Source: Methylobacterium haplocladii (lineage in GTDB: Bacteria > Pseudomonadota > Alphaproteobacteria > Rhizobiales > Beijerinckiaceae). From it: DNA of 64,000 bases. Position numbers and translations under genes: made by a program. Position 1 is the stretch's first letter; every line of letters starts with the position of its first letter. The notes under the pieces were generated by a model, which was given only the letters and a program-made list of their open reading frames with translations, did no database searches and was not told where the DNA came from. The DNA lies in contig NZ_BJZT01000002.1 in NCBI RefSeq assembly GCF_007992175.1, positions 62,001-126,000 on the forward strand, given 5' to 3'. Of the stretch, positions 30,804 through 50,130 are shown piece by piece.

Positions 30804-30846
30804 CGCCGGCCGCACTATGGTGCCGAATCCGGCGATCTCATTTTTT
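30804..30846 (+). terminator. Possible terminator after porin
   Basis: CGCCGG and CCGGCG form a 6-bp stem around a 19-nt loop (an inner CGGC/GCCG pairing is an alternative). They are followed by ATCTCA and a run of six T. It lies 44 bp after the porin stop and before the binding-protein gene. Confidence 0.4.
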
Positions 30847-30892
30847 GCCTGGCCGAACCTCGACGCCGGCACTCACGCAGGAAAGACGCCGC

Positions 30893-31804
30893 ATGCGCCT
30901 CTCACACGCGCTTCTCCTGGCCGGCCTCACGGCGACGACGGGGAGTGTTGCCGCTCAGGCGGACGATCTGACCGGCACGCTTAAGAAGGTGAAGGAGTCC
31001 GGCGCCATCACCATCGGCTACCGCGATTCGTCGGTGCCGTTCTCCTATCTCGACGGCGACCAGAAGCCGGTCGGCTACGCCTACGAGATCTGCCGCAAGG
31101 TCGCCGCCGCGGTGAAGGCGCATCTCAAGCTCGACAAGCTGGAGGTGAAGCTCAACCCGGTCACCTCGGCGACCCGCATCCCGCTCATCGCCAACGGCAC
31201 GATCGACCTCGAATGCGGCTCGACCACCAACAACGCCGACCGCCAGAAGCAGGCGAGCTTCACCAACACCCACTTTCTCACCGCGACGCGCTACGTCGCG
31301 AAGAAGGACAAGAAGCTCGACAGAATCGACGACCTGAAGGGCCGCACGGTCGTCTCGACCTCCGGCACCACCAACATCCGCCAGATCAACGAGGCCAACA
31401 CCGCCCGATCGATGGGCCTGACAATCCTTCCGGCCAAGGACCATGCCGAGGCCTTCCTGATGGTCGAGACCGGCCGGGCCGACGCTTTCGTGATGGACGA
31501 CGTGCTGCTCGCCTCCCTGGTGGCCGGCTCGAAGACGCCCGACGCCTACGTGATCTCGGGCGAGGCGTTGTCGAAACCCGAGCCCTACGGCATCATGCTG
31601 CGCAAGGACGACGCCCCGTTCAAGGCGGTTGTCGATGCCGCCACCAGCGCCCTCTACAAGAGCCCCGAAGGCAAGGCGCTCTATGAGAAGTGGTTCACGC
31701 AGGCGATTCCGCCGCGCGGCATCAACTTGAAGCTGCCGATGAGCGAGTCGATGCAGAAGGCGTTCGCCTCGCCGAGCGACAGCGCCGATCCGGCCGCGTA
31801 CTGA
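30893..31804 (+). CDS. gltI: Glutamate/aspartate-type ABC transporter binding protein
   Basis: This 303-residue family 3 periplasmic binding protein has a signal peptide to about residue 24. Next come GYRDSSVPFSYLDG, EICRKVAAAVKAHL, TIDLECGSTTNNADRQ, STSGTTNIRQINEAN and ADAFVMDDVLLASL, which resemble E. coli GltI. It delivers acidic amino acids to the membrane complex. The ATG at 30893 follows CAGGAAAG. Two permeases and an ATPase follow within 10 bp of each other, so this is one operon. Confidence 0.93.
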   Translation: MRLSHALLLAGLTATTGSVAAQADDLTGTLKKVKESGAITIGYRDSSVPFSYLDGDQKPVGYAYEICRKVAAAVKAHLKLDKLEVKLNPVTSATRIPLIANGTIDLECGSTTNNADRQKQASFTNTHFLTATRYVAKKDKKLDRIDDLKGRTVVSTSGTTNIRQINEANTARSMGLTILPAKDHAEAFLMVETGRADAFVMDDVLLASLVAGSKTPDAYVISGEALSKPEPYGIMLRKDDAPFKAVVDAATSALYKSPEGKALYEKWFTQAIPPRGINLKLPMSESMQKAFASPSDSADPAAY

Positions 31805-31814
31805 CCGCGCGGCA

Positions 31815-32537
31815 ATGAACTACAACTGGAACTGGGGCATCTACTTCGAGCCGTCGCCCGAGGGCGTCGGCACCTACGCGGACATGCTGCTCTCCGGGCT
31901 GCAATGGACCGTAGCGACCGCCCTCTCCTCCTGGGTGATCGCTTTCTTTCTCGGCTCGCTGATCGGCGTGATGCGGACCCTGCCCTCGAAGGCCGCGCAG
32001 GCATTCGGTACGGCCTATGTCGAGCTGTTCCGCAACATCCCGCTCCTGGTGCAGATGTTCCTCTGGTACTTCGTAGTGCCGGAATTGTTGCCGGAATCGC
32101 TCGGCACGCGGCTCAAGCAACTGCCGAATGCGCCTTTCGTGACGGCGGTGGTGTGCCTCGGCCTGTTCACCGCCTCCCGCGTCGCAGAGCAGGTCCGCGC
32201 CGGCATCCAGGCCCTGCCGCGCGGCCAGGGCATGGCCGGCACCGCCCTCGGGCTGACCGTCGCCCAGACCTACCGCCACGTGCTGCTGCCGAACGCCTAT
32301 CGCATCATCCTGCCACCGCTGACATCGGAGTTCCTGAACAACCTCAAGAACACGTCGGTCGCGCTCACCATCGGCCTGCTCGAGCTCACGGCCCGCGCCC
32401 GCGCCATGCAGGAATTCTCGTTCCAGGTCTTCGAGGCGTTCACCGCCGCCACGATCCTCTACGTGCTGATCAATGTCGTCGTGATCGTGCTGGCGACGTG
32501 GCTCGAACGCACCGTCGCCGTGCCGGGGACACGCTGA
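31815..32537 (+). CDS. gltJ: Amino-acid ABC transporter permease 1
   Basis: This 240-residue HisM/GltJ-type permease starts MNYNWNWGIYFEPSPEG, the GltJ-like N-terminus. It has TAVVCLGLFTASRVAEQVRAG, and the EAA loop AGTALGLTVAQTYRHVLLPNAYRIILPP, where the ATPase docks. About five membrane helices are visible. It starts 10 bp after the binding protein and shares one base with the next gene (TGATG). Confidence 0.94.
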   Translation: MNYNWNWGIYFEPSPEGVGTYADMLLSGLQWTVATALSSWVIAFFLGSLIGVMRTLPSKAAQAFGTAYVELFRNIPLLVQMFLWYFVVPELLPESLGTRLKQLPNAPFVTAVVCLGLFTASRVAEQVRAGIQALPRGQGMAGTALGLTVAQTYRHVLLPNAYRIILPPLTSEFLNNLKNTSVALTIGLLELTARARAMQEFSFQVFEAFTAATILYVLINVVVIVLATWLERTVAVPGTR

Positions 32538-33229
32538 TGTTTGCGAACTTCGATTTCGGGGTCATCGCCTCGTCCCTGCCCTACCTTTTCGGGCAGGGCA
32601 TGGTCTTCACCGTGACCTTGACCGCACTCGCCGCCGGCATGGGCGTGGTGCTCGGGACCCTGATCGCGCTCATGCGACTCTCCGGGATCCCCGGCGTGAC
32701 GCATCTCGCCAAGGGCTATGTCGAGCTGATGCGCTCGCTGCCGCTCGTGCTGGTGATCTTCTGGTTCTACTTCCTGGTGCCGTATATCGGCGCCTGGGCC
32801 ACGCGCTCCTCGACGCCGATGCAGGTCGGCGCGTTTCCGTCGGCACTGATCACCTTCACGCTGTTCGAGGCGGCCTTCTTCGCCGAGATCATGCGGGCCG
32901 GCATCCAGTCCATCGCGAAGGGACAGACGGCGGCGGCGCAGGCGCTCGGGCTGACCTACTGGCAGACCATGGGCAGCATCGTCCTGCCCCAGGCGTTCCG
33001 CAACATGCTGCCGCTGCTGCTGACCCAGACGATCGTTCTCTTCCAGGACACATCTCTGGTCTACGTGCTCTCGCTCACCGACTTCCTCGGCGCCGCGTCG
33101 AAGGTGGCGCAACGCGACGGGCGGCTCGTCGAGATGTATCTCTTCGCAGCCGTCGTCTACTTCGCGGTGTGCTTCGCGGCCTCGTTCCTGGTGCGGCGCC
33201 TGCACAGCCGCGTGGCGATCATCCGATGA
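32537..33229 (+). CDS. gltK: Amino-acid ABC transporter permease 2
   Basis: This 230-residue partner permease begins [18 protein letters not shown]. It has [22 protein letters not shown], and the EAA loop [22 protein letters not shown]. It ends with a basic tail [12 protein letters not shown]. The ATG overlaps the stop of the first permease by one base, indicating translational coupling. The two permeases form the heterodimeric channel. Confidence 0.94.
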
Positions 33230-33236
33230 GGGCGAC

Positions 33237-34097
33237 ATGACCTCCACGCCGATGCCGGCTCCAGGAGCCGCAAAGCCTGTCGCTACGGCCGTCCAGGCTC
33301 CCGAGGATGAGGGCTTGCAGACGGGGCCGCTGGTCACGCCGCCGCCGGCGACGGCAGCGGGCGTTCCGATGATCGCGATTGATGCGATCAGCAAATGGTA
33401 CGGCAGCTTCCAGGTCCTGACCGATTGCACGACGCAAATCGCCAAGGGCGAGGTCGTGGTGGTCTGCGGCCCCTCGGGCTCGGGCAAGTCAACGCTGATC
33501 AAATGTGTGAATGCGCTCGAGCCGTTTCAATCCGGCCAGATCACGGTCGACGGCACCCGGGTGAAGGACAAGGCCACGAACCTGCCGAAGCTCCGCTCGC
33601 GCGTCGGCATGGTGTTTCAGCACTTCGAGCTGTTTCCGCACCTGTCGATCATCGAGAATCTGACGCTCGCCCAGCGCAAGGTGCTCGGCCGCTCGTCGGA
33701 CGACGCCAAGACGCGCGGCCGCGACCTCCTCGCGCGGGTTGGCCTCTCCGCCCATTCCGAAAAGTATCCGGGGCAGCTCTCGGGCGGCCAGCAACAGCGC
33801 GTGGCGATCGCCCGGGCGCTCGCCATGAACCCGGTGGTGATGCTGTTCGACGAGCCAACCTCGGCCCTCGACCCGGAGATGGTCGGCGAGGTGCTCGACG
33901 TGATGGTCGAACTCGCCCGCGACGGCATGACCATGATGGTCGTCACCCACGAGATGGGGTTCGCCCGCAAGGTCGCCGACCGGGTGATCTTCATGGACAA
34001 GGGCGAGATCGTCGAGGACGCGAAGAAGGACGACTTCTTCGGCAAGCCGCGAAGCGAGCGCGCCCAGCACTTCCTCTCGAAGATCCTGCAGCACTGA
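33237..34097 (+). CDS. gltL: Amino-acid ABC transporter ATPase
   Basis: This ATP-binding subunit shows Walker [11 protein letters not shown], signature [15 protein letters not shown], Walker [17 protein letters not shown] and the switch His in VVTHEMGFA. The first ~45 residues form a Pro/Ala-rich extension absent from typical 240-245-residue members. The classical start would be the in-frame ATG giving [12 protein letters not shown] at 33369. The 33237 ATG lies 7 bp after the permease stop behind GAGGG and is kept. It completes a four-gene importer. Confidence 0.95.
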
Positions 34098-34169: not shown

Positions 34170-34493
34170 TCAGGCGGCGACCGGGCCTACCGCAGCATGT
34201 CCCTGCAGCGATCCCGCGAGATGATCCGCCGGCGAGCTGACTGCGCGAACCATCCGGGCGATCGAGCCGATCGAGTAAAAGTTCTTCGGGTTCAGCTGCG
34301 CGGCCGGGATCATGATGTCGAACTCGGCTTCCACAGCCACCATAAGATTCACGAGATCGAGGGACGACAGGCCGACATCGACCAGGGCGTCCTCCGCCGC
34401 GAAGTCCCGAACCTGCCCCTCCTGCGCAAGGATTGCCTTGGCGAGACTCATGGTCCGGTCGGTGTAGTTGGCGAGGGCCGTCTCGGTGCTCAT
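34170..34493 (-). CDS. Stand-alone acyl/aminoacyl carrier protein 1
   Basis: This 107-residue protein has a carrier-protein fold. Helix I is MSLAKAILAQEG, and VDVGLSSLDLVNLMVAVEAEF surrounds the attachment site. The phosphopantetheine Ser is probably Ser44. The usual Asp before it (DSL) is Ser (SSL). A C-terminal tail of about 25 residues rich in Ala/Gly extends past the domain. It is divergent from an acyl-CoA-dehydrogenase-like gene and an amino acid:carrier protein ligase, so it may be a partner of that ligase (inference). No phosphopantetheinyl transferase is in the window. Confidence 0.88.
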   Translation of the reverse strand: MSTETALANYTDRTMSLAKAILAQEGQVRDFAAEDALVDVGLSSLDLVNLMVAVEAEFDIMIPAAQLNPKNFYSIGSIARMVRAVSSPADHLAGSLQGHAAVGPVAA

Positions 34494-34650
34494 GTCACGT
34501 CATCCAGCTCGGCACGCCGCTATGAACGCGGGCACCATTTTGCGGAAAATTGTTCGGTTTTCATTGCGATGCCGCACCGTCGATGGTCAATGAAGTCGAC
34601 GGCTATGCCTGTATACATCGTTAATTTTAAGCATACTGACTGTGCGTATT

Positions 34651-34668
34651 TTTCGCGAATGAGCGAAA
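34651..34668. promoter_or_regulatory. Inverted repeat TTTCGC(6)GCGAAA
   Basis: A perfect 6-bp dyad with a 6-nt spacer in the divergent region. It has operator-like geometry and an unknown regulator. Confidence 0.4.
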
Positions 34669-34681
34669 TCCAGTTTTAAGC

Positions 34682-34696
34682 CCTATAGCCTATAGG
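34682..34696. promoter_or_regulatory. Inverted repeat CCTATAG-C-CTATAGG
   Basis: Perfect 7-bp arms flank a single central base. The outer TTTAAGC and TCTAAA extend the symmetry roughly. It is 71 bp upstream of the dehydrogenase start, a position suited to an operator. Confidence 0.45.
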
Positions 34697-34767
34697 TCTA
34701 AATCAGAGCCGATCTGAACGTCCAGGCTCGATGGCCGGGTCTTGACCGTGCCGAGGCGCTTTCGAGG

Positions 34768-35976
34768 ATGACCATGACGATCCAGCAAGGGGCGACGACG
34801 ATCGGGCCGGTGACCACGGCCGCCGACCTGCAGATGCGGGCGCAGGCCGTGGCCGCCATCGCCGCTGCCCATGCCGATTCGGTCGACAGCGAAGGGCGCT
34901 TCCCGTCCGAGGCGCGCGAGGCGATGCGCACGCACCGTCTCCTCGGCGCGGCCATCCCGATCGAACTCGGCGGTGAAGGCGCCTCGATCCGGGCGCTCGC
35001 CGACGTCTGCTACACGCTGGGCCGGGCCTGCGCCTCGACCGCGATGATCTTCGCGATGCACCAGACCAAGGTCGCCTGCCTCGTGCGCCACGGCCGCGGC
35101 GAGCCCTGGCAGGATGGCGTCATGCGCCGCATCGCCCACGACCAACTGCTGATGGCCTCCTCCACGACGGAGGGCAACAACGGCGGTAACGTTCGCGCGT
35201 CGGTAGCGGCCGTCGAGGTGGATGACGCGGGCGTGCGGCTCGACCGCGCCGCCACGGTGATCTCCTACGGCGCCGAAGCCGACGGCGTCGTCACGGTCGC
35301 ACGCCGGGCCGTCGACGCGGCTTCGTCCGACCAGGTGCTCTGCGTGTTCCTCAAGGAAGACTACACCCTGGAGCGTCTGAGCGGCTGGGAGACGCTCGGC
35401 ATGCGCGGCACCTGCAGCAGCGGCTTCCGCCTCCTCGCCCATGGCGGCGGCGAGCAGGTGTTGAAGGCCCGCTACGCCGAGATCCACGGCCAGACCATGA
35501 CGCCGGTCTCGCACATCCTGTGGTCGAGCGCCTGGACCGGTATCGCCGCGGCGGCGGTGGAAAAGGCCCAGGCCTTCACCCGCACCGCCATGCGCGGGGC
35601 AGGCGGCGTCGCCCCACCCGGCGCCGTTCATTACGGCCGGGCCGTTTCCGGCCTGAAGCAGGCACGCGCGCTGATCGGCCAGAGCCTCGACCGGTACGAG
35701 GCCGCCTCCGGCGATCCCGCCGCCCTGTCGGCGATGGATTTTCAGACGGCCATCACGATGCTCAAGGTCGAGGTTTCGGAACTCGCCGTCACCACGGTGA
35801 TGAGCGCGATGCGCGCCAACGGCCTCGCCGGCTACCGGCAGGACGGCGCCTTCACCGTCGGCCGCCACCTGCGCGACGTCCTCTCCGCGCCGATCATGAT
35901 CCACAACGACCGGATCGTCGCCAACCTCGTCACCGCAACCCTCATGGCCCCCGTCGCCGCATCGCTGCGCGACTAA
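34768..35976 (+). CDS. Acyl-CoA-dehydrogenase-like flavoprotein
   Basis: This 402-residue protein has the ACAD fold: an N-terminal helical domain (IPIELGGEGASIRALADVCYTLGRACASTAM), a middle beta domain (LMASSTTEGNNGG, then GWETLGMRGTCSSGF) and a C-terminal four-helix part with GRHLRDVLSAPIMIHNDRI. Aligning that end with medium-chain ACAD places Ile where the catalytic Glu (in YEGT) should be. It may therefore not be an ordinary acyl-CoA dehydrogenase. The neighbouring genes suggest a carrier-bound substrate. ATG at 34768 or 34774. The aa:CP ligase follows 25 bp later. Confidence 0.88.
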   Translation: MTMTIQQGATTIGPVTTAADLQMRAQAVAAIAAAHADSVDSEGRFPSEAREAMRTHRLLGAAIPIELGGEGASIRALADVCYTLGRACASTAMIFAMHQTKVACLVRHGRGEPWQDGVMRRIAHDQLLMASSTTEGNNGGNVRASVAAVEVDDAGVRLDRAATVISYGAEADGVVTVARRAVDAASSDQVLCVFLKEDYTLERLSGWETLGMRGTCSSGFRLLAHGGGEQVLKARYAEIHGQTMTPVSHILWSSAWTGIAAAAVEKAQAFTRTAMRGAGGVAPPGAVHYGRAVSGLKQARALIGQSLDRYEAASGDPAALSAMDFQTAITMLKVEVSELAVTTVMSAMRANGLAGYRQDGAFTVGRHLRDVLSAPIMIHNDRIVANLVTATLMAPVAASLRD

Positions 35977-36001
35977 CCCCCTCACGCAAGGATCGACGAC
36001 G

Positions 36002-36934
36002 ATGAACATGAACGTCAAAATCGCTCCGGCGGCCCCCACCGCGACGGACCCGCTCGACGCGCTCTTCGACACGATGTTCCGCCCGATGGATGCGCAGGGC
36101 GTCTACGCGCGGACCGGCGCCTACGAGTCGGTGGTGGAGGCACTTGTCGCGCTGATCACCTCGAAGCGCGAGGCGGATACCGAGGTGTTCCGCTTCCCGC
36201 CGGTGATGAGCCGGGCGCATCTCGAACGGCACGGCTATCTCAAGAGCTTCCCGAACCTGCTCGGCTGCGTCTCCTGCCTCGAAGGCAGCGAACAGGAGAT
36301 CCTGGCCCAGGCCGGTCTCCACGAGAAGGGCGGCGACTGGACGAGCGGCCTGGAGACCGCCGACCTCGTGCTGACGCCCGCCGCCTGCTACCCGGTCTAT
36401 CCGATCGCAGCCGCGCGCGGCCCCGTCCCCGCGGCCGGCTATCGCTTCGACGTCGCCTGCGACTGTTTCCGCCGCGAGCCGTCGCCGCATCTCGATCGCC
36501 TGCAATCCTTCCGGATGCGCGAATACGTCACGATCGGCACGCCCGAGCAGGTCGCCGAGTTCCGCGAGCGCTGGATCGTTCGTGCCACGGCGCTCGCCGA
36601 CGAACTCGGCCTCCCCTACACCGTCGAGCAGGCCAGCGACCCATTCTTCGGCCGGCTCGGCCAGATCAAGGCCTTCAGCCAGCTCGAGGCCGCGCTGAAG
36701 TTCGAGCTGCTGATCCCCCTGCGGGGCGAGGCGGCCGGCACGGCCTGCATGAGCTTCAACTACCACCGCGAGCATTTCGGCACGACCTGGGATCTGCGCC
36801 ACGCCGACGGCGAGCCGGCCCATACCGGCTGTGTCGCCTTCGGCATGGACCGCCTCGCGGTGGCGATGTTCGCTACCCACGGCGCCAGCGTCGCCGACTG
36901 GCCGCAGGGCGTCCGCACCGCGCTGTCGCTCTAA
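36002..36934 (+). CDS. Amino acid:[carrier protein] ligase (SerRS-like)
   Basis: This 310-residue protein is related to the catalytic domain of atypical archaeal-type seryl-tRNA synthetase but lacks a tRNA-binding domain. Characterised relatives (Bradyrhizobium Bll0957) activate glycine or alanine and load it on the phosphopantetheine of a small carrier protein (established). The zinc triad is present: Cys129 (LTPAACYPVYP), Glu174 (FRMREYV) and Cys277 (AHTGCVAFGMDR). Each is two positions before the Cys131/Glu176/Cys279 I recall for Bll0957. Motif 2 (CFRREPSPH) and motif 3 (GMDRLAVAMF) are visible. The ATG at 36002 follows AGGATCGACG. It is the key enzyme of this cluster. Confidence 0.93.
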   Translation: MNMNVKIAPAAPTATDPLDALFDTMFRPMDAQGVYARTGAYESVVEALVALITSKREADTEVFRFPPVMSRAHLERHGYLKSFPNLLGCVSCLEGSEQEILAQAGLHEKGGDWTSGLETADLVLTPAACYPVYPIAAARGPVPAAGYRFDVACDCFRREPSPHLDRLQSFRMREYVTIGTPEQVAEFRERWIVRATALADELGLPYTVEQASDPFFGRLGQIKAFSQLEAALKFELLIPLRGEAAGTACMSFNYHREHFGTTWDLRHADGEPAHTGCVAFGMDRLAVAMFATHGASVADWPQGVRTALSL

Positions 36935-36971
36935 CACGACGCGACAAGGCCGCTCGATCGCAGGATCCGTG

Positions 36972-37946
36972 ATGTCCCTCGACCCGTATGTCAGGCGGTT
37001 TCTGGACACGCTCGCCATGGGCGGAGCCGGCGCGCCGAGCGTCGCCGGACGCCGCCAGGGCCAGCGGGTGCTGGCCCGGCTCGCCGGCGTCGAGTCGGCC
37101 CCGATCTCCGTGCGGGAGCTGACGCTGCCGCTCTGGTCCGGCCCGTGCGCGGCACGGCTCTACACGCCGCCGGATGCGGCTGAGCCGGGTCCCGGACTCG
37201 TCTTCTTCCACGGCGGCGGGCTCATCGCCGGCGACCTTGATACGCACGACACCCTCTGCCGCCGCCTGGCGGTCGCGGTGGGGTGCCGGCTCGTATCCGT
37301 CGCCTACCGGCTCGCGCCCGAGCACCCTTACCCGGCGGCGATCGAGGATGCGGTCGCGGCCTTCGTCCACGTCGCGGGCGACGCCGCCGCGTTCGGCATC
37401 GATCCCAGCCGTCTCGCCATCGGCGGCGATTCGGCCGGCGCTGGCCTTGCGGCCCGAGTCTGCCAGGAGTTGCGCGGAAACGGCCTGGCCATCGCGGCGC
37501 AGCTGCTGCTCTGCCCGGTGCTCGACCTCCGCTGCGGGAGCGCCGCGCAGGACGCGTTCGCGACGGGTTACTTCCTCGACGGGCAGACCATGCGCCACGA
37601 CATCGCCGCGAACGGCGTAGCGCACATGGTCGACGAGCCGAGGGTCTCCCCACTCCTCGAACCGGATCTTGCCGGCTTGCCCCCAGCCCAGATCCACACC
37701 GCCGCCTTCGACATCGTCCGGGATGACGGCGCGGCCTATGCCGAACGCCTCCGGCAAGCCGGCATACCGGTCGCGTACACGTGCCATGCCGGCATGATCC
37801 ACTTTTTTTACGGGCTCGGCCGCCTGATCCCGGCAGCGCAGCCGATCCTCACCGAGATCGGCGCCGCGTTCGGCGCCCTCCTGCGCGGCGCACCTGCCGA
37901 GCAGCCCGACATCGTCCACCCCGAACCGTTGCGGAGAGCATCATGA
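36972..37946 (+). CDS. HSL-type alpha/beta hydrolase
   Basis: This 324-residue esterase/thioesterase-like protein has the oxyanion motif HGGG (residues 80-83), the nucleophile Ser154 in GGDSAGAG, a likely acid Asp247 (AAFDIVRDDG) and His277 (GMIHFF). It also has YRLAPEHPYPAAIED, typical of the hormone-sensitive-lipase family. It may release or transfer a thioester-bound product (inference). The ATG at 36972 is one codon after an in-frame GTG. Its stop overlaps the start of carrier protein 2 (ATGA), so the two are translationally coupled. Confidence 0.9.
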   Translation: MSLDPYVRRFLDTLAMGGAGAPSVAGRRQGQRVLARLAGVESAPISVRELTLPLWSGPCAARLYTPPDAAEPGPGLVFFHGGGLIAGDLDTHDTLCRRLAVAVGCRLVSVAYRLAPEHPYPAAIEDAVAAFVHVAGDAAAFGIDPSRLAIGGDSAGAGLAARVCQELRGNGLAIAAQLLLCPVLDLRCGSAAQDAFATGYFLDGQTMRHDIAANGVAHMVDEPRVSPLLEPDLAGLPPAQIHTAAFDIVRDDGAAYAERLRQAGIPVAYTCHAGMIHFFYGLGRLIPAAQPILTEIGAAFGALLRGAPAEQPDIVHPEPLRRAS

Positions 37947-38200
37947 CCCTGCGTTCGACCGTCATCGCCGAGATCAAGGCCATTACCCGCGATCACGACA
38001 AGACCATGCCGCCGCTCACCGACGACATGGTGCTGATGGACACCGAGTTCGATTCGCTGTGCTTCGCCCTGTTCGTCGCCCGCATGGAGGATCACCTCGG
38101 CGTGGATCCGTTCGGCACCATGGAGGTCGCCGACCTGCCGGTGACGCTCGGTGACCTCGTCGCGCTCTACGACCGCGCCGCCGTGACGGAAGCGGCCTGA
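37943..38200 (+). CDS. Stand-alone carrier protein 2
   Basis: This 85-residue carrier-protein domain has an N-terminal helix (MTLRSTVIAEIKAIT), VLMDTEFDSLCFALFVARMEDHLGVDP with attachment Ser38 in FDSL, and a final helix TLGDLVALYDRAA. It is distinct from carrier protein 1: shorter, with a canonical DSL, and Cys right after Leu. It overlaps the hydrolase stop by 4 nt and is 4 bp from the AMP-forming ligase, which may be its loading enzyme. Two carriers and two adenylating enzymes suggest two different tethered building blocks (inference). Confidence 0.88.
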   Translation: MTLRSTVIAEIKAITRDHDKTMPPLTDDMVLMDTEFDSLCFALFVARMEDHLGVDPFGTMEVADLPVTLGDLVALYDRAAVTEAA

Positions 38201-38204
38201 GCCG

Positions 38205-39575
38205 ATGAACCTCCGCGACCGCCTGAGCCGCGCGGGCACGCCCCAAAATCTGTTCCTCGCGGACAGGTCCAGCCGCCGGGCTCTACGCGACAGCCTCGAT
38301 GCGGCGGCCCGCGTCGATGTCGCCGAGCGGCTCGCCGGGCGTTCGGTTCTGGTCGCCACGGGCGGCCAGATGGCCGCCGCGCTCGCAATGATCGCCCTCG
38401 ACGGGCTGGTCCGCCGGATGGTGCTCGCGCCACCCGGCATGACCGCCGAGCAGGTGCCGGGCGTCCTGGCTGATGCCGAGATCGACCTCTGCGTGACCGA
38501 TGCCGGTTGCCCGTTCCGGGCCGCGCTCGACGGCCTGCCCTGCATCGAGGCCGCCGACGCTGCCCTGGCCGCCGCGCCGGATGTGCAGCAGCCGACAGAG
38601 TGGGTGCTGACCACCTCGGGCACCACCGGCGCGCCGAAACTCGTCGCGCATACCCTCGAAGGCCTCGCGGGTGGGATCAACACGGCGGCGGCGCCCGATC
38701 CCGGCACGGTCTGGAGCACGTTCTACGACATCCGCCGCTATGGCGGCCTGCAGGTTTTCCTGAGGGCGATCCTCGGCCCGTCGCCGCTGGTGCTGTCCGA
38801 TCCCGACGAACCAGTGCGCGAGTACATCCTGCGGGCGGCGGAGGCCGGCGTCACCCATATCCTCGGAACGCCCTCGCATTGGCGGCTGGCGCTGATGAGC
38901 ACCGCGCTTCCGCACTTGAAAGCCCGCTACCTGCGGCTTTCGGGAGAAATCGCCGACCAGGCGATTCTCGACCTGCTCCGCGGCGCCTTCCCCGAAGCGC
39001 GGATCGCCCATGCCTATGCCTCCACCGAGGGCGGCGTCGGCTTCACCGTCGAGGACGGACGTGAGGGCTTTCCCGCGGGTCTCGTCGGCGCGCGCACCGG
39101 CATCGAGATCGTGGTGCGCGACGACACGCTCCACATCCGCTCGAACCGCACCGGGCGGCGGTATCTCGGCGAGGGCGCCGCGGCGCTGGCCGATGAGGAG
39201 GCGTTCGTCGATACCGGCGATCTCGTCGAGCGGCGCAGCGACCGCTTCTTCTTCCTCGGACGCCGCAGCGGCATGATCAATGTCGGCGGCGCCAAGGTGC
39301 AGCCCGAAGAGGTCGAGACCGTCATCAACGGCCATCCGCGCGTGTCGATGTCCCGCGTCCGCGCCCGGCCGAACCCGATTCTCGGTGCCGTCGTCGAGGC
39401 GGAGATCGTCCTGCGGAGCGATGCCGCCGAGGAGGCCGACCCGGCTGCGCTCAAGACGGCGATCATCGCCCACTGCCGCCCGCACCTCGCCAAGCACAAG
39501 GTCCCCGTGAGCGTGAAGTTCGTTCCCGACCTGCCGCTCACCGCCGGCGGCAAGCTTCTGCGGAGGGCGCCATGA
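38205..39575 (+). CDS. AMP-forming acyl/aryl ligase
   Basis: This 456-residue member of the ANL superfamily has the P-loop LTTSGTTGAPKLVAHT (about residues 135-150), the HAYASTEGGVGF motif and the VDTGDLVERRSDRFFFLGRR hinge region. GGAKVQPEEVETVI follows, and the catalytic Lys lies in TAGGKLLRR near residue 451. It adenylates a carboxylic acid and transfers it to CoA or a carrier. The N-terminal subdomain is short compared with the usual 500-550 residues. It starts 4 bp after carrier protein 2 and overlaps the SDR gene by 4 nt (ATGA), so it belongs to the same operon. The substrate is unknown. Confidence 0.9.
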   Translation: MNLRDRLSRAGTPQNLFLADRSSRRALRDSLDAAARVDVAERLAGRSVLVATGGQMAAALAMIALDGLVRRMVLAPPGMTAEQVPGVLADAEIDLCVTDAGCPFRAALDGLPCIEAADAALAAAPDVQQPTEWVLTTSGTTGAPKLVAHTLEGLAGGINTAAAPDPGTVWSTFYDIRRYGGLQVFLRAILGPSPLVLSDPDEPVREYILRAAEAGVTHILGTPSHWRLALMSTALPHLKARYLRLSGEIADQAILDLLRGAFPEARIAHAYASTEGGVGFTVEDGREGFPAGLVGARTGIEIVVRDDTLHIRSNRTGRRYLGEGAAALADEEAFVDTGDLVERRSDRFFFLGRRSGMINVGGAKVQPEEVETVINGHPRVSMSRVRARPNPILGAVVEAEIVLRSDAAEEADPAALKTAIIAHCRPHLAKHKVPVSVKFVPDLPLTAGGKLLRRAP

Positions 39576-40306
39576 CCGCACTACGCACCGTCATCGTGAC
39601 AGGGGCGAGCCGCGGCATCGGGCTCGCCATAGCGAGCACGCTCGCGGCCGAAGGCTTTCGCGTGGTTGCCGTAGCGCGGCGTTCCTCGGAGGCGTTCGAG
39701 GCGGCGGCGGCGGCGGCTCCCGACGGATCGATGCATTTCACGGCCTGCGACCTTGGAAAGACCGAGGCGCTGCAGCCGCTGGTGCGGGGCATCCGGGCCG
39801 AGCACGGCCCGATCTACGGTCTGGTGAACAATGCAGCGATCGGCACGCCGGGACTCCTCGCGACGATGCCCGACCACGCGGTGGCGGACCTCGTGCACCT
39901 CAACACCCTCGCGCCGATGCTGCTGACCAAATACGTCGTGCGCGGCATGATGGCCTCGGGCAGCGGGCGCATCGTGAGCGTGAGCTCGATCATCGCCTTC
40001 ACCGGCTACAACGCGCTCTCGGTCTATGCTGCGACGAAGGCCTCGATGATCGGCTTCACGCGTTCGCTCTCGCGTGAGGTCGGCCGTCTCGGGGTGACGG
40101 TCAACGCGGTGGCGCCGGGCTTCATCGAGACCGCGCTGACCGAGGGCATGGACGAGGCCGAACGCGAGCGTATCGCGAAGCGCAGCGCGCTCCGCCGCCT
40201 CGCGGATCCGGACGACGTGGCCAACGCCGTCGCCTATCTGTTCTCGGACAAGGCCCGCAACGTCACAGGTACCGTCCTGACCGTGGATGCCGGCAGCACG
40301 GCCTGA
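39572..40306 (+). CDS. FabG-like short-chain dehydrogenase/reductase
   Basis: This 244-residue SDR contains the NAD(P) motif TGASRGIG, the NNAAIG strand, SVSSIIAFTGY with the catalytic Ser, YAATK (Tyr and Lys) and the PG motif in NAVAPGFIETAL. It would reduce a keto thioester or oxidise a hydroxy group. Its close coupling to the ligase and carrier protein suggests a carrier-bound substrate. It is the last gene of the plus-strand unit and ends 3 bp before the opposing GINT1-like gene. Confidence 0.93.
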   Translation: MTALRTVIVTGASRGIGLAIASTLAAEGFRVVAVARRSSEAFEAAAAAAPDGSMHFTACDLGKTEALQPLVRGIRAEHGPIYGLVNNAAIGTPGLLATMPDHAVADLVHLNTLAPMLLTKYVVRGMMASGSGRIVSVSSIIAFTGYNALSVYAATKASMIGFTRSLSREVGRLGVTVNAVAPGFIETALTEGMDEAERERIAKRSALRRLADPDDVANAVAYLFSDKARNVTGTVLTVDAGSTA

Positions 40307-41836: not shown

Positions 41837-42224
41837 CGGGCTTCCTGCATGGCTGTCGGGTTCCGCGTCATCGGTCGTGCCCCACATCTGCAGGGCACTT
41901 GTCCCTACGCCTCGACAGGTCTGACAAGTTGATCCTGCAAGGAAGGCTTAACCACGCCGGAAGATTTCCCGGATCGGGCGACCCGCGCATCTCCATCTGC
42001 GTGATCGTATACTAAGTTTTTTCAGTAAAATATTTCTTGATGCCACAGACCTGGAGGCACAGCCTCGGAAAAACACGAGAATGAGCAGATGGGCGCTACG
42101 GTCGATTAGGTATTGATCACTTAACGTTTCGACCGGACCGGCCCCGGGCCGAGCCTTCGGACGCGGCCGAGCCGTCGCGCAGATTTTGCAGACCGGACCG
42201 CGGACGAGAGGACGGAGCTCCGCC
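41837..42224. other. Divergent intergenic region before polysaccharide genes
   Basis: No gene is seen. A distinctly AT-rich patch lies at 42007-42041 (TTTTTTCAGTAAAATATTTC). It may be the promoter of the plus-strand polysaccharide operon. Confidence 0.45.
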
Positions 42225-44360
42225 TTGAACCAACAATGGCCAAGCGTGAGACAGGGCGAACGTGTTTCGGCGCAGCCGAACATGCTGCTGCCCTATGTCC
42301 CGATCCGGCCGAACCATGCGGCAAAGGACACGGCGGCCGATGTCGGCGACCTGTGGCGCATCATCGTGCGCCGCCGCGGGACCGTGCTGTTCACGACTGC
42401 GATCTTTCTCCTCGGCGCGCTGCTCTACAGCCTCCTCGCCGCTCCCCTGTTTTCCGCTACGTCGCAGCTCCTGATCGACCCGCGCAACCGCCAGGTCGTG
42501 AGCCGCGACCTCAACGATAGCGCCGTCGCGCCGGATGGCGGGGTCACCGTCGTCGAGAGCCAGGTCAAGGTCATCGAGTCGGACTCGGTCCTCCTGCGGG
42601 CCATTGCCGAGACCGGACTGGAAGACGATCCCGAATTCGGTGCTCCGACCCGGGGCCTCGTCCAGGAGACCGTGCAGGGTCTCCAAACGGCGCTGTTCGG
42701 CAGCCGCGAGGTCGAGCGGAACCGAAGGACGCTGGCGCTGCTGAAGCTGCGGCGGAAGCTCGCCGTCAAGCGGGCCGACAAGGTCTTCGTGGTGGACGTG
42801 ATCGTGACGGTGTCCGATCCCGACAAGGCCGCCCGCATCGTCAACGCCATCGCCAAGGCCTATCTCGCCGATCAGGCCGAGGCTCGGTCGAACGCCGCGA
42901 ACCGCGCCTCCGGGGAGCTGCGCGGTCGTCTCGACAGCCTGCGCACGGACGTCAATGCGGCGGAGACGCGGCTCGAAGCCTTCAAGGCGGCGAACGGGTT
43001 GATCGCGTCGAGCGGCCGCCTCGTCAGCGAGCAGCAACTGACCGACAGCAACGCCCGCCTGATCGCGGCCCGCAACCGCATCGCCGAGACGAAGAGCAAG
43101 CTCCAGGATCTCCAGGGCGTCCGCGGCGCCGCCTTCGACACGAGCGCGCTGCCGGAGGCGATCCAATCGCCGACGATCGAGCGTCTGCGCTCGCAATATT
43201 CGGAGCTTGCCAGCAAGGAAGGCGACCTGCGCACCCAGATGGGCGCCCGCCATCCCTACATGGCCGCCATCCGCACGCAGATGTCGGACGTGAAGCGCCT
43301 GATCGACACCGAGCTCGTGCGCATCACCAAGGCGGCAGAGATCGAGCTTCAGCGCGCGCAGGCCGCCGAGAAGCTGCTCAAGGCGAACCTCACCGAACTG
43401 CGCACCGAGTCGGTGCAGACGAGCAAGGCCACCGTCCAGCTGCGCGAGCTCGAGAGCAGCGTCCAGGCGAGCCGTTCCATCTACGACACCTATCTCGTGC
43501 GCTCGCGGGAAATCGCCGAGCAGGCCAATATCGACACGGCCAACACCCGGGTGATCACCTGGGCGCAGCCGCCCGAGGAACGCAGCTGGCCGCTGCGCGG
43601 GCTGATCCTGTCCGCCGGCCTCATGGCGGGCCTCGGCATCGGCGTCGGGCTCGCGATGGTGCGCGAATACGCGCGGCCAGCTTTGCTCTCCCGCCGGCAA
43701 TGCGAGCGGCTGCTCGGGGCGCCGGTCCTGGCGACCTTGCCTCGCTCCTTGAACCCTCATGATCCCGCCTGTCAGAAGGAGGCGATCGTCGCCCTCGACA
43801 CCCTGCGCAGCCAGTTCAGGCCGCCGAACGGGGTCGAGCGAGCCCTCGTCGTCGTGGTCGTGGCCTCGATCGGCGATGCCGGCGAGCAGCGATCGGTCAT
43901 CGACGTCCTGTCCGGCACCGCTGCGGCGCGGGGCGACAGGGTCCTCGTCGTCGAAGCCGACCTCAACGCCGACGATCTCGGAAAGGGTGGGCTGCTCGAA
44001 GTCCTGCGCGGCGAGATGAGCCTCTACGCGGCCATCACGACGAACCCGGCCACTGGCGCCCGCTGGCTCGGGATCGGCAACGGCGACAAGCCGGTAAGCG
44101 GCGCCTTCGACCGGGCCAATGTCGAACAGTTTTTCGACCATGTCGGCGGCCGGTTCGATCTTGTCCTGGTCAATGGCGGGATCCTGCCGGCGAACACACG
44201 GATCGCCTCCGTGGTCGGTTCAGCCGACCGCCTGCTCGTCGTGGCGCGGGCCGGCCGGACCCTGCAGGCCGATCTCACCGATCTCGACCGCGTCGCCTCG
44301 GCGATGGGACGGGCGGCGTTCGGCGCCGTGCTCGTGGACGATCGGGTCAGGACGCGATGA
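42225..44360 (+). CDS. Wzc/GumC-like polysaccharide co-polymerase with degenerate kinase domain
   Basis: This protein of about 711 residues starts at a TTG after GGAGCTCCGCC (TTG 42186 is an alternative). The N-terminal Wzz domain has a first membrane helix (TVLFTTAIFLLGALLYSLL), long coiled coils (residues 220-440) and a second helix (GLILSAGLMAGLGIGVGLAM). It would control polymer length in the inner membrane. The C-terminal domain keeps the kinase-like fold, but in place of the Walker A Lys motif is VVVVVASIGDAGEQRSVID, and no Tyr-rich tail is seen. Catalysis is therefore unlikely. The next gene overlaps by 4 nt. Confidence 0.88.
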   Translation: MNQQWPSVRQGERVSAQPNMLLPYVPIRPNHAAKDTAADVGDLWRIIVRRRGTVLFTTAIFLLGALLYSLLAAPLFSATSQLLIDPRNRQVVSRDLNDSAVAPDGGVTVVESQVKVIESDSVLLRAIAETGLEDDPEFGAPTRGLVQETVQGLQTALFGSREVERNRRTLALLKLRRKLAVKRADKVFVVDVIVTVSDPDKAARIVNAIAKAYLADQAEARSNAANRASGELRGRLDSLRTDVNAAETRLEAFKAANGLIASSGRLVSEQQLTDSNARLIAARNRIAETKSKLQDLQGVRGAAFDTSALPEAIQSPTIERLRSQYSELASKEGDLRTQMGARHPYMAAIRTQMSDVKRLIDTELVRITKAAEIELQRAQAAEKLLKANLTELRTESVQTSKATVQLRELESSVQASRSIYDTYLVRSREIAEQANIDTANTRVITWAQPPEERSWPLRGLILSAGLMAGLGIGVGLAMVREYARPALLSRRQCERLLGAPVLATLPRSLNPHDPACQKEAIVALDTLRSQFRPPNGVERALVVVVVASIGDAGEQRSVIDVLSGTAAARGDRVLVVEADLNADDLGKGGLLEVLRGEMSLYAAITTNPATGARWLGIGNGDKPVSGAFDRANVEQFFDHVGGRFDLVLVNGGILPANTRIASVVGSADRLLVVARAGRTLQADLTDLDRVASAMGRAAFGAVLVDDRVRTR

Positions 44361-45640
44361 TCCAGGCCGAGGCGCGTCTCTGGGCGCCGGAGCGGGCGAG
44401 CCTGACGCCACCACCGGATCTCGCGCTCATCGTGCTGACGGTCCTCGTCTTCGGCGTGTCGGGCGGCATGCTCTGGCTCGTCGGCATCAACTACGACGGG
44501 CTGACCGGTTCGGCGGCCCAGAAGATCCACCCCGCCACCTACCTGTCCATCGTGCTCCTTGCCTGGACGATGGCCCGCGTCGGCAATCCCGTGGCCAACG
44601 CGGTCACGGCGCTCGAACGCCGGCCCGCCGGCCTCCTGCTCGGTGTGATGGGGATCGGCCTCGCCGTCCAGATCGTCGTGCGCGGCGGCGCAGGCATCGC
44701 GGGCGCGATCGATACGTTCCTGCTGCCCGCCATCGTCGCCATCCTCTTCATCGGCTGCGACGGGCGAACGATGAAGCGGATCGAGACCACGATCCATGTC
44801 GTCATGGCCGTGAACGCGGCCCTGGGCCTCCTCGAATTCGTCTCGGGCCAGCGCTTCTTCCCCTACCGGCTCGACGGCGCGCTGCTCGAATACGACACGC
44901 GCTCGGTCGCCCTGCAGGGTCATCCGCTCACGAATGCGACCCTGACGGCCTGTTACGTCGTCGCCCTCGCGGCGGGCGGCGGATCGCTCGGCGCAATGCG
45001 GCGGCTCGTCGTCATCGGATTGCAGATCGCCGCCCTCGTCGCCTTCGGCGGCCGTTCGGGAATCGTCGTCACCCTCGTCCTCGGCGGCGGCCTCGGACTC
45101 ATCGGAATGGTCCGGGCCGTCATGCGGGGGCAGATCCCGCTGCTCGCGGTGGCGGGCGCCGCCTTCGCCCTGCCCCTGCTCGGGCTGACGCTTGCCGGGC
45201 TCGCCGGCTTCGGCTTCTTCGACGCCCTGCTCGGCCGCTTCGTCGACGATGGCGGCAGCGCCAATGCGCGAGTCGTGGTGCTGGACCTGTTCGGCCGGCT
45301 GTCGCTGCGCGAACTCGTCATCGGCCCGGACCCGACCGTCATCGACAGCATGCGCCGCATCAACGGTTTGGCGATGGGTCTGGAGAACCCGATCGTCCGG
45401 CTCCTGCTCTACCAGGGCGCCGCGATGACGGCCCTGCTCACCGTCGCCCTGGCGTTGTTCCTGTACGAGATCGGACAGCGCTGCCGCCCCGGCATCGCCA
45501 TGCCGATGATCACCTTCGCCGTCCTCGCCAACACCTACGAGAGCGTCGGCAGCAAAACGACGCTGGTGGCGAAGTTCGTGATCCTGCTTCTGGCGCTGTA
45601 CCGGGCTCCCGCACCGGAGGAAGAGACGGACATGGCCTGA
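44357..45640 (+). CDS. VpsF-like membrane polymerase (O-antigen ligase fold)
   Basis: This 427-residue protein has about ten membrane helices and a long periplasmic loop between them. It resembles VpsF/O-antigen polymerase-like proteins: TRSVALQGHPLTNATLTACYVV, LVAFGGRSGIVVTLVLGGG and RFVDDGGSANARVVVLDLF are the recognisable blocks. It probably joins repeat units made by the neighbouring glycosyltransferases. It overlaps the co-polymerase gene by 4 nt (ATGA) and ends head-to-head with the glycanase gene, the stops directly adjacent. Confidence 0.82.
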   Translation: MIQAEARLWAPERASLTPPPDLALIVLTVLVFGVSGGMLWLVGINYDGLTGSAAQKIHPATYLSIVLLAWTMARVGNPVANAVTALERRPAGLLLGVMGIGLAVQIVVRGGAGIAGAIDTFLLPAIVAILFIGCDGRTMKRIETTIHVVMAVNAALGLLEFVSGQRFFPYRLDGALLEYDTRSVALQGHPLTNATLTACYVVALAAGGGSLGAMRRLVVIGLQIAALVAFGGRSGIVVTLVLGGGLGLIGMVRAVMRGQIPLLAVAGAAFALPLLGLTLAGLAGFGFFDALLGRFVDDGGSANARVVVLDLFGRLSLRELVIGPDPTVIDSMRRINGLAMGLENPIVRLLLYQGAAMTALLTVALALFLYEIGQRCRPGIAMPMITFAVLANTYESVGSKTTLVAKFVILLLALYRAPAPEEETDMA

Positions 45641-46915
45641 TCAGGGCCGTAGACCGAGGGTGGGCAGGCGCAGGCCGAGGGCGCCGAGCATGTCCGTATC
45701 GAGCTCGCGGGCAGTGTCGTCCATGATTCCCATGCCGTCGAACAGGTTCCAGAACGCCCAGGGGAAGCCGTAGGTCTCCGCGCTGCGGCGCACGTCGGCG
45801 ACGTAGCGGGCGCGGTCGGCTGCACCCGAGGCGACGTAGCGATGGTCGCTGCGCAAGGCGCCGAACTCGCCCATCAGGATCTGCCCGGTCGGGATCGCGT
45901 TGCGCACCGACCAGTCGCGGACCTGCCCGAGATAGCGGTCGACGAAGCCGCGGTCCGGACGCGCGGCGAAGTACTCCGCGAGCTTCGCTTCGGTCAGCCG
46001 GTAGGCGTCCGCCTTGTCCGCCTCCGGCCTCTCATCGTCCTGCGCCATCCGGGCACGGACGGCTGCGAGCGTCGCGTCGAGGCGCCCGGTGGAGGCCGGC
46101 CACGGCACCGCGTTCAGCGAGCGATAGACGGGCTCCCGCATCCAGGGCGCGCCCTGATGGGTGAACAGGTACGGCTCGTAGAAGTGGAAGGTGTAGAGCA
46201 GCGGCCCGTAGAGCCGCAGCGGGGCCGGATCGAGCGCCGTCAGGCCGCGGATCATGCTGCCGCAGGCCCCCGTCGCAACAAGCGTCAGTCGGGGCGCGGC
46301 GACCCGTGCCGCCGCGAGCAGATCGGTTTGCACCAGCGTCCAGGAGGCGGACGCGCAATCCTGCGTCGGCTCGTTCACCGGCTCGAACGCGACCCGCTCG
46401 GGCGAGTACCGTGTCAGGTCCCGGGCCAGCTCCGCCACCAGCGCACGATAGGCCGGCAGCAGCGGGGCGCGGGGTTCGCCGTAGAGGTTGCCCGGATTGT
46501 AGTGGTGCGTCGCCGCATTGGCGTGGAGGTTGAGGACGAGGGTGAGGCCCTCGGCCAGGATCGCGGCGATCGCGGAATGCAGGTCGGCGAAAAGCGCCGC
46601 GCGCTGCGCGCCGTCGAAGGCCAGGAAGGGGCCGGGATCGACGGGAAGACGGACGAAGTCGAAGCCCACCCGGGCGAGGCGCGACAGGTCGGAGCGGGTC
46701 GGGACAGGGCGCCGCTCCTGAAAGGCCGGCCAGCCGTAATCCGTGCGCGGCGCCGGAAACTCGCGGGTGAGCGAGAACCACGGCCAGAGGTTGATCCCGC
46801 GGCGGATCGCGATCGGCTCCGGCCCGGTGCGCGCCGCCGCGGCGGTACGCGGGGCGAGCACGCTGGCGAGCCCGCCCCCGATCACACCGCGCCGCGTGGC
46901 GCCGTCGTACGCCAT
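45641..46915 (-). CDS. GH5-family glycanase with twin-arginine signal
   Basis: This 424-residue protein begins with a Tat-like signal (TRRGVIGGGLASVLAPRTAAAA). A cellulase-type (beta/alpha)8 barrel follows, with INLWPWFS, FVRLPVDPGPFLAF, the acid/base Glu in FEPVNEPT and the nucleophile Glu in ILMGEFGALR. It would cut a beta-glucan-like polymer in the periplasm, as trimming enzymes of polysaccharide loci do. The ATG shares one base with the stop of the upstream glycosyltransferase gene (TGATG). Confidence 0.9.
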   Translation of the reverse strand: MAYDGATRRGVIGGGLASVLAPRTAAAARTGPEPIAIRRGINLWPWFSLTREFPAPRTDYGWPAFQERRPVPTRSDLSRLARVGFDFVRLPVDPGPFLAFDGAQRAALFADLHSAIAAILAEGLTLVLNLHANAATHHYNPGNLYGEPRAPLLPAYRALVAELARDLTRYSPERVAFEPVNEPTQDCASASWTLVQTDLLAAARVAAPRLTLVATGACGSMIRGLTALDPAPLRLYGPLLYTFHFYEPYLFTHQGAPWMREPVYRSLNAVPWPASTGRLDATLAAVRARMAQDDERPEADKADAYRLTEAKLAEYFAARPDRGFVDRYLGQVRDWSVRNAIPTGQILMGEFGALRSDHRYVASGAADRARYVADVRRSAETYGFPWAFWNLFDGMGIMDDTARELDTDMLGALGLRLPTLGLRP

Positions 46916-48126: not shown

Positions 48127-48308
48127 CGATTCCTGGGATGTTGGCGGCGAGATCGCTGACCCGGCCAATCACCCGCGACGCGATCGTGCTGCGCCAATAT
48201 TTAAGGATCGACCTATAGACCGTGACCTCTGTTCGACAGTCTCTACAGACAATGCCAAGCGGTGAATTTGCTATTAAAGTTAATTCACCCGCAAGATGTA
48301 GGTAGAAT

Positions 48309-49484: not shown

Positions 49485-49969
49485 ACGAGGGAGCCCGATT
49501 CCTGGTGAGCTACCCGGACCTCGCGGACCGCGCCGAGCAGGATCGCGTGGCTGTGGCGCTCGATGACCTCGTCGATCTCGCAATCGACGATGGCCTGCGC
49601 CCCGGCGAGCCCGGAGGCGCCGGATCTCATGACGATCCAGTCTGCGCCCTGGTAGCGCTCGGCCCCACGCAGAGATCCGATGCCGGCGAAGCGCTCGGCC
49701 ACGGCCTGATGCTCCGCGCCGAGGATGCTCACGCAGAAGTGCCGCCGCCGGGCGATCACCGGCCAGGTCGACGAGGCGCGGTTCACGCAGACGAGCATGG
49801 TCGGCGGATCGACGGAGAGCGAGACCGCCGAGGTCGCCGTGAGGCCGACGCGTTCGTCTCCCGAGCCGGCTGTGACGACGACGACTCCCCCGGTGAGCCG
49901 GCGCATGGCCATCTTCAGCAGGGCGGCGCTCGTAGGCGGAGGGGGGATGTCTCGGACCGAAATGTTCAT
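49445..49969 (-). CDS. Flavin reductase-domain protein
   Basis: This 174-residue flavin-reductase-like protein (HpaC type) has MAMRRLTGGVVVVTAG, the FMN-binding GLTATSAVSLSVDPPTMLVCVN, RRHFCVSILGAEHQAVAERFAG and the His of IERHSHAILLGAV. Such proteins supply reduced FMN/FAD to a separate monooxygenase. None is obvious in the window, but the ACAD-like protein at 34.8 kb is a speculative partner. The ATG at 49969 follows AGGAGAGGG. It overlaps the convergent glycosyltransferase. Confidence 0.88.
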   Translation of the reverse strand: MNISVRDIPPPPTSAALLKMAMRRLTGGVVVVTAGSGDERVGLTATSAVSLSVDPPTMLVCVNRASSTWPVIARRRHFCVSILGAEHQAVAERFAGIGSLRGAERYQGADWIVMRSGASGLAGAQAIVDCEIDEVIERHSHAILLGAVREVRVAHQESGSLVYRLGCFGSVPLA

Positions 49970-50130
49970 CGCCCTCTCCTGCTCCGCGACCAACCCTGCC
50001 GACGGTCCGACCGGAGGGAACGCGCGTTCGCCCCGATCGGCCCCCAGACCCTTTGCCACGCTGCCCGCGCCCGGAAACGCCATGGTCCGCCGCCTGTTCG
50101 CGACGGCCGCCGTCTGTGCGCCGGCGGCTT

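Follow-up and report, generated by a model that had tools for sequence, protein, structure and literature searches.

What biological process does an amino acid:carrier-protein ligase serve? Enzymes of this kind were reportedly described in 2010. What they do in the cell is still given as unknown in PMC9437257, and our literature search on the ligase, DUF1839 and the gene set returned only a review statement and a paper on a papain-like family. The stretch of Methylobacterium haplocladii DNA analyzed here (64,000 nucleotides, hereafter the window) encodes such a ligase within a compact set of seven genes at 34170–40306. The kind of enzyme is already known. We assign a probability of roughly 0.5 to a two-module carrier system, in which an amino acid activated on one carrier would undergo oxidation by a flavoenzyme, a second acid would be activated on the other carrier, and a carrier-bound unit would be transferred by a GNAT enzyme, furnishing a small amide or a surface-polysaccharide substituent.

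Open reading frames called afresh agree with the initial annotation on the seven genes and their positions. The stand-alone carrier CP1 (34170–34493, minus strand) adjoins the ligase set and is divergent from an acyl-CoA dehydrogenase (ACAD)-like flavoenzyme (34768–35976), with which a plus strand series begins: the ligase (36002–36934), an HSL-family alpha/beta hydrolase (36972–37946), the second stand-alone carrier CP2 (37943–38200), an AMP-forming ligase that is the CP2 partner (38205–39575), and a FabG-like SDR (39572–40306). The 4-nt overlaps that had been described are present at two junctions, HSL/CP2 (ATGA) and AMP ligase/SDR; the remaining plus strand gaps are 25, 37, and 4 nt. A scan of 34.1–40.5 kb found no sigma-70-like promoter, and the four terminator-like sites therein (shuffle mean, 2.0) all lie outside the intergenic regions.

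The assignment of the SerRS-like ligase is robust. It matches the NCBIfam model PRK07080, 'amino acid--[acyl-carrier-protein] ligase', at 458.7 bits over residues 5–309 (cut-off 357), and the structurally characterized relative Bll0957 (3MEY) at 475.8 bits. At 310 residues it is devoid of the SerRS tRNA-binding domain; SerRS models match it only through their own C-terminal catalytic part, for instance positions 311–503 of 518. Cys131, Glu176, and Cys279, which we take from the 3MF1 work to be the active-site zinc ligands, are invariant among 45 homologues aligned to Bll0957. Fold, zinc ligands, size, and an adjacent PRK07081-like carrier are thus shared with Bll0957-type ligases (3MEY, 3MF1, 4H2S). 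Unlike for these, the genomic context here splits into two clades with different partners, and the window-type clade, clade A, adds a second carrier, an AMP ligase, an SDR, and a GNAT. Ligases of this type load Gly or Ala on their carrier; the window enzyme probably loads a small amino acid, with glycine the likeliest, onto CP1.

Two carriers and two adenylating enzymes had been proposed for this locus, and all four are complete with their motifs intact. CP1 matches PF00550 at 30.4 bits, with Ser44 as the phosphopantetheine serine, and PRK07081 at 4.5e-15, below the cut-off; CP2 (FDSLCFA) matches PF00550 weakly, at 16.9 bits against a cut-off of 20.8. The attachment serine is invariant across 36 aligned carriers of both types. 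The AMP ligase (PF00501 and PF13193) preserves TSGTTGxPK, YASTE, TGD, and Lys450; within the limits set, a PDB sequence search with its profile turned up no informative relative. The SDR matches PF13561, and a 3oxo_ACP_reduc match of 206.8 bits lies below that model's cut-off. A small AMP ligase paired with a stand-alone carrier is reminiscent of the DltA/DltC D-alanylation pair, although the window unit possesses an SDR, and a GNAT in place of the MBOAT transferase; no DltB-type MBOAT match was found among the window genes scanned. The hydrolase (PF07859, GDSAG motif; LipP1 below cut-off) is also found near the ligase set in other families, and that it releases the product is a guess from its position. 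As the initial annotation had it, the interval lacks a phosphopantetheinyl transferase. The genome, however, holds two candidates for one elsewhere, both ACPS-family matches, so the carriers can be activated.

Are these genes more than chance neighbors? Among the 80 nearest GTDB loci that we fetched, CP1, the flavoenzyme, and the ligase occur together in all 80. We also queried 249 Hyphomicrobiales genomes, followed by 26 more. The AMP ligase and the tandem GNAT described below are present in exactly the same 14 of the 249 genomes, and clade-A ligase is confined to 13 of those 14, a pattern that holds also for genomes in which the loci lie apart; in the further 26, AMP ligase and GNAT occur together in both positives. 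Hypergeometric tests of this co-occurrence among AMP ligase, GNAT, and clade-A ligase gave 1e-21 to 1e-23, values which treat the genomes as independent and ignore relatedness. The support rests more on the differing arrangements in several families than on these statistics. Linkage and co-occurrence together led us to reject the chance-neighbor reading, and the original proposal passes the check on neighbor conservation that could have refuted it.

The arrangements reveal two modules, CP1-ACAD-ligase (module 1) and CP2-AMP-SDR (module 2), which can come apart yet co-occur across families. Module 2 moves as a unit: it lies on the same strand in Methylobacterium and Bosea, is inverted in L003, L004, L018, L165, and L196–L198, and occupies a separate locus in Bradyrhizobium and in genomes G528, G070, and G433. 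Might the modules then constitute two separate pathways that are often merely kept close? Their lack of linkage in those four cases is in line with this idea, as is the presence of AMP ligase and GNAT in G909, where the ligase is absent, and in G551, where the ligase is of the sister clade; from these two genomes it follows that module 2 can work without a window-type ligase, a point that also counts against a two-module system. Yet every genome with a clade-A ligase also has module 2 (14/14 genomes), and at least five families keep the modules side by side, variously arranged, so that we consider separate pathways unlikely. A further point against the two-module system is that no CP1 was found near the ACAD-ligase pair in G070 and G433.

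Conserved partners at 40.3–41.9 and 51.8–62.3 kb demonstrate that 34170–40306, which had been given as the extent of the system, is too short; the cluster is part of a larger gene set inherited together across several bacterial families. Two tandem GNATs, G1 (51839–52747, plus strand; 66% identical to its Bosea ortholog) and G2 (54990–55925, plus strand), are 41% identical to each other and are the only tandem-GNAT copies in the genome. G2 has no match in the Pfam or NCBIfam sequence libraries, and a PDB sequence search with the GNAT profile, within the limits set, was likewise uninformative. Its predicted structure (pLDDT 86.5) adopts the GNAT fold, with Foldseek matches to tandem GNATs such as Eis at a best E of 1e-8 and VIA-align rows at Z 13–14. 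The acyl-CoA loop Q/RxxGxG/A is only partly kept, the corresponding loop reading R-x-x-A/G-x-L or M. The GNAT gene adjoins the ligase in Bradyrhizobium and CP2-AMP in G528, G070, G433, and G909, and thereby ties both modules together. If one enzyme family is to be singled out as the likeliest to transfer or join the units, it is the tandem GNATs.

Between the GNAT genes lies a thiamine diphosphate enzyme (PRK08199, 887.9 bits; 52909–54606, plus strand), the linked copy of a widespread family. Further recurrent neighbors are a class IV aminotransferase (PRK13356; 55958–56815) and a Cupin_3 protein (56927–57307), both on the minus strand, and, on the plus strand, a Cys/Met PLP enzyme of the O-acetylhomoserine sulfhydrylase type (57815–59107), an HTS homoserine acyltransferase (59146–60147, start approximate), and a long-chain acyl-CoA synthetase (PRK08279; 60455–62299). 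The product could be a soluble small molecule or signal, such as an N-acyl amino acid, an aminoketone, or a pyrazine-like compound; the thiamine enzyme would then form a C–C bond to a carrier-bound unit. In most linked loci the GNAT has a PRK08199 copy next to it, and G757, G836, G803, G528, G070, and G433 possess a second copy that looks dedicated; both observations would fit such a product. However, the family occurs in 186 of the 249 genomes and hence is not specific to the system, for which reason we rejected the thiamine enzyme as a defining part and regard a soluble product of this type as very doubtful.

What might happen to the CP1-bound amino acid? Classical ACADs carry their catalytic glutamate in an IYEGT motif (Glu376 in MCAD). 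In the window enzyme (PF02771), alignment and profile alignment to solved ACADs place Ile378 at this position, and 50 of 50 homologues possess Ile or Val; the structural model is of low confidence around Ile378 (overall pLDDT 76.7). The absence of the glutamate weakens a classical acyl-CoA dehydrogenase role. The model matches ACADs at Z 33–35, tied with DszC at Z 35.8, which like nitrososynthase is an ACAD-type flavin monooxygenase, so that fold ranking favors neither a dehydrogenase nor a monooxygenase role. A profile search puts dehydrogenases first. Given that the CP1-ACAD-ligase core is present in 80/80 loci and in 28/30 loci of the sister clade, the flavoenzyme most likely acts on aminoacyl-CP1. 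ACAD-like enzymes that act on carrier-tethered amino acids have precedent in CaeB1 and ColB1 of the caerulomycin and collismycin assembly lines (PMC8149447), with which the window enzyme shares the fold and, presumably, the type of substrate; its model superposes on ColB1 with Z 34.7 over 354 residues at 3.0 Å. CaeB1 employs Glu372 as the base and is recruited via an NRPS Ct domain (PMC8149447), whereas the window enzyme has Ile378 instead and no NRPS.

Taken together, a model for the two-module system emerges. In module 1, the ligase would adenylate a small amino acid (glycine being the likeliest) for transfer to CP1, where the flavoenzyme may oxidize it by N–Cα oxidation or oxygenation rather than by glutamate-based α,β-dehydrogenation. 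In module 2, the AMP ligase would charge CP2 with a second carboxylic acid, a keto group of which could be reduced by the FabG-like SDR. A tandem GNAT would then move a carrier-bound unit to an amine, either of the other carrier-bound unit or of an amino sugar. The first option, which we advance as speculative and improbable, casts the stand-alone tandem GNAT as a condensation enzyme that joins the CP2 acyl unit to an oxidized glycyl on CP1, allowing amide assembly without NRPS domains. The reported lack of NRPS condensation and thioesterase domains was borne out: no such Pfam match was detected at 34.2–41.9 kb or in the genes scanned at 42–62 kb, and an NRPS was rejected.

The second option leads to the polysaccharide genes at 42186–51570 (matches to PF02706, NF038256, and PF00534), which sit between the two halves of the system: a Wzz-like gene (42186–44360, plus strand), a VpsF-like gene (44357–45640, plus strand; 340 bits to VpsF NF038256), glycosyltransferases (46915–48168, minus strand; 48309–49484, plus strand), and a flippase-like gene (50131–51570, minus strand, start approximate) that resembles a Bosea neighbor and has no Pfam match. 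Preceding these is a GINT1_N-domain protein (PF24793; 40310–41887, minus strand), a relative of which lies beside CP1 in Bosea locus L016, with others in L198 and in Shinella locus L274, where the gene overlaps the GNAT gene by 1 nt; this protein has ties to surface polysaccharide loci as well as to the system. Wzz, VpsF, and GINT adjoin the system in several genera. The system might therefore decorate a Wzz/VpsF exopolysaccharide, with both GNATs, or DUF1839 in the sister clade, transferring an aminoacyl group from a carrier onto an amino sugar, a proposal that we regard as possible but tentative.

Precedents for such decoration exist in BtrH, acting on an aminoglycoside, and in Dlt, acting on teichoic acids, and polysaccharide genes adjoin the system in the window, in Bosea, in L198, and in 15/28 sister-clade loci. 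Shinella possesses a GNAT-GINT operon with a flippase and glycosyltransferases, and loci of this composition occur in Roseateles as well. Exopolysaccharide markers are present in only 7/20 clade-A loci, which also tells against the two-module system; their count of zero in control loci comes from a biased control, as the marker queries were drawn from clade A and its sister clade. No polysaccharide markers were found near the ligase in Bradyrhizobium, in most Methylorubrum loci, and more broadly in many Methylobacteriaceae, to the detriment of decoration and of the two-module system alike. Decoration also leaves the hydrolase, the thiamine enzyme, and the methionine genes without explanation. 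The GNAT occurs, too, in polysaccharide loci where no ligase or carrier was recognized, a further difficulty for the two-module system.

The sister clade presents a different context, CP1-ACAD-ligase-DUF1839-GH2, often near polysaccharide genes and glycosyltransferases. DUF1839 is predicted to be papain-like and glycan related, and BtrH is a related papain-like acyltransferase (PMC10318531). With DUF1839 beside a loaded carrier, the ACP:aminoglycoside acyltransferase BtrH offers an analogue for the sister clade; DUF1839 constitutes a separate Pfam family, however, and is not present in the window. These loci provide the first concrete partner set for amino acid:carrier-protein ligases and a different one for the sister clade, and with partners named for both, the role of these ligases becomes testable. 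To them are added an uncharacterized flavoenzyme and an uncharacterized tandem-GNAT family tied to carriers. A distant relative of the latter accompanies a carrier in family f255, at a locus reminiscent of the exosortase A-associated ligase/decarboxylase/ACP set; the ligase there belongs to a different subfamily, the amino acid:carrier-protein ligase is absent, and the ligase and decarboxylase resemble TIGR03098 and TIGR03099, with scores just below cut-off.

An ORF check of the window recovered all seven genes named in the initial annotation, CP1, an ACAD-like flavoenzyme, an aa:CP ligase, HSL, CP2, an AMP ligase and an SDR, at the proposed coordinates within 34170–40306, and the family assignments guessed there agree with domain and family searches. 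The ligase, encoded in a 4.63 Mb genome, has its closest match in Methylobacterium sp. Leaf112 (93%), exceeds the cut-off of the NCBIfam model amino acid--[acyl-carrier-protein] ligase, and can be aligned along its length with the solved ligase Bll0957; all three zinc ligands (C131/E176/C279) are unchanged in an alignment of 45 homologues. The phosphopantetheine serine is retained in both CP1 and CP2, the core motifs of the AMP ligase are intact, C-terminal lysine included, and the genome encodes two candidate phosphopantetheinyl transferases at other sites. The neighbours are likewise conserved: CP1, ACAD and the ligase are found together in every one of the ligase's 80 nearest GTDB loci. The conserved system around this known but unexplained ligase is real.

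A wider ligase sample comprised 55 loci from proteobacterial genomes. Clade A ligases are window-like, at 60–93% identity; those of sister clade B stand at about 43–53%, and those of a distant group C fall under the family cut-off. The CP1-ACAD-ligase core (module 1) is common to clades A and B, while no flavoenzyme was found in the group C loci read. In clade B, as on an annotated Azospirillum brasilense plasmid, the core is followed by DUF1839 and a GH2-type protein, and the loci also carry alpha/beta hydrolases and often glycosyltransferases. A third context was observed in loci L162 and L167 (ligases at 45–49% identity), with an alpha/beta hydrolase nearby and neither flavoenzyme nor DUF1839. 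In loci L166 and L187, the genes directly after ACAD and ligase encode an O-acetylhomoserine sulfhydrylase-type enzyme and a homoserine acyltransferase, and CP1 was not recognised nearby.

CP2, the AMP ligase and the SDR (module 2) travel as a single unit. In Methylobacterium, Methylorubrum and Bosea it comes after HSL and is read in the same direction; it is inverted in seven loci (L003, L004, L018, L165, L196, L197 and L198), and occupies a separate locus in Bradyrhizobium and in genomes G528, G070 and G433. The partner tying the modules is a two-GNAT-domain protein family, without a match in Pfam or NCBIfam, that lies outside the interval initially annotated. Its only two copies in the genome are both within the window, at 51.8 and 55.0 kb. 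It adjoins the ligase in Bradyrhizobium, and CP2-AMP in G528, G070, G433 and G909. The close relative G513 has the thiamine enzyme and flippase at the syntenic position but lacks the first copy (51839–52747) there, yet Bosea has an ortholog of this copy at 66%, a pattern that suggests gain or loss.

Co-occurrence was queried for all three proteins in the same 249 Hyphomicrobiales genomes. AMP ligase hits with E values no higher than 4e-168 (the next worst exceeded 1e-60) and GNAT hits no higher than 2e-81 (the next stood at 8e-47) fell in an identical set of 14 genomes, and the clade A ligase in 13 of these and nowhere else (hypergeometric p 1e-21 to 1e-23, ignoring the relatedness of the genomes). 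Two Methylobacterium genomes with clade B ligases have neither AMP ligase nor GNAT. Among 26 further genomes picked for carrying some ligase, the AMP ligase was present in only two, both with the GNAT: G140, from another order, with a clade A ligase, and G551, with a clade B ligase. A clade A ligase therefore implies module 2 (14/14 genomes); the reverse fails in G909, which lacks the ligase, and in G551. The initial annotation had envisaged an amino acid loaded on one carrier and an acyl unit on the other, to be oxidised, reduced and joined or released. Of the possible readings this two-carrier scheme is the most economical, and half of it is supported: the two modules do travel together, with a transferase that had been missed.

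The GNAT was predicted, with pLDDT 86.5, as a tandem GNAT resembling Eis, N-myristoyltransferases and glucosamine acetyltransferases (Z 13–14), a fold that is by itself silent on substrate; the CoA-binding loop is only partly kept. Records from Shinella and Roseateles place a GNAT relative against a GINT1_N gene, overlapping or abutting it, in loci that also encode glycosyltransferases and a flippase; in the window, a GINT1_N gene comes after the SDR. In locus L262 (6487–10426; family f255), a distant relative is accompanied by a carrier and by a ligase and a decarboxylase resembling TIGR03098 and TIGR03099, respectively. Based on these contexts, we favour acyl transfer from a carrier, partly towards surface glycans. 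Nine genomes, from a single genus, have the L262-type set, and all of them carry clade B ligases elsewhere in the genome.

Polysaccharide markers matched 7/20 clade A, 15/28 clade B and 0/14 group C loci, the last a biased control because the queries were drawn from clade A and B loci; no marker matched in the Bradyrhizobium loci. A surface glycan is a possible destination.

The position of the catalytic Glu of ACADs (IYEGT) is Ile or Val in 50/50 aligned flavoenzyme homologues, and aligning the profile with solved ACADs confirmed this. The predicted model, weak in its C-terminal part, has an ACAD fold, for which DszC-type monooxygenases, ColB1 and dehydrogenases ranked as tied. CaeB1 and ColB1 are precedents for the oxidation of a carrier-tethered amino acid by enzymes of this kind, the base in CaeB1 being E372 (PMC8149447). 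Invariant residues of the flavoenzyme include H98, H249, W252, W256, N380 and R382. Glycine has no beta carbon; were it the substrate, classical alpha,beta-dehydrogenation would be impossible regardless of the Glu. We therefore tentatively infer N-C-alpha oxidation or oxygenation.

Other genes turn up repeatedly near the set in several families but are less specific to it: PRK08199, a PRK13356 aminotransferase, a cupin, HSL, an O-acetylhomoserine sulfhydrylase-type enzyme and a PRK08279 acyl-CoA synthetase. The PRK08199 thiamine enzyme was ruled out as a defining part, since its family occurs in 186/249 genomes; six genomes hold a second copy, and in these one copy lies within the cluster. Just upstream of CP1, genes for a binding protein, permeases and an ATPase (30845–34097) make up an ordinary amino acid-type ABC transporter, which does not accompany the system at other loci. 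Just past CP1, Bradyrhizobium loci, among them L020 (3799–5816), carry phosphorylase (PF01048) and IF-2B-family genes resembling methylthioadenosine salvage (MtnP, MtnA). In the window, homoserine acyltransferase and O-acetylhomoserine sulfhydrylase-type genes lie at 57.8–60.1 kb. Genes related to methionine are thus repeated neighbours of the ligase, though this may be chance.
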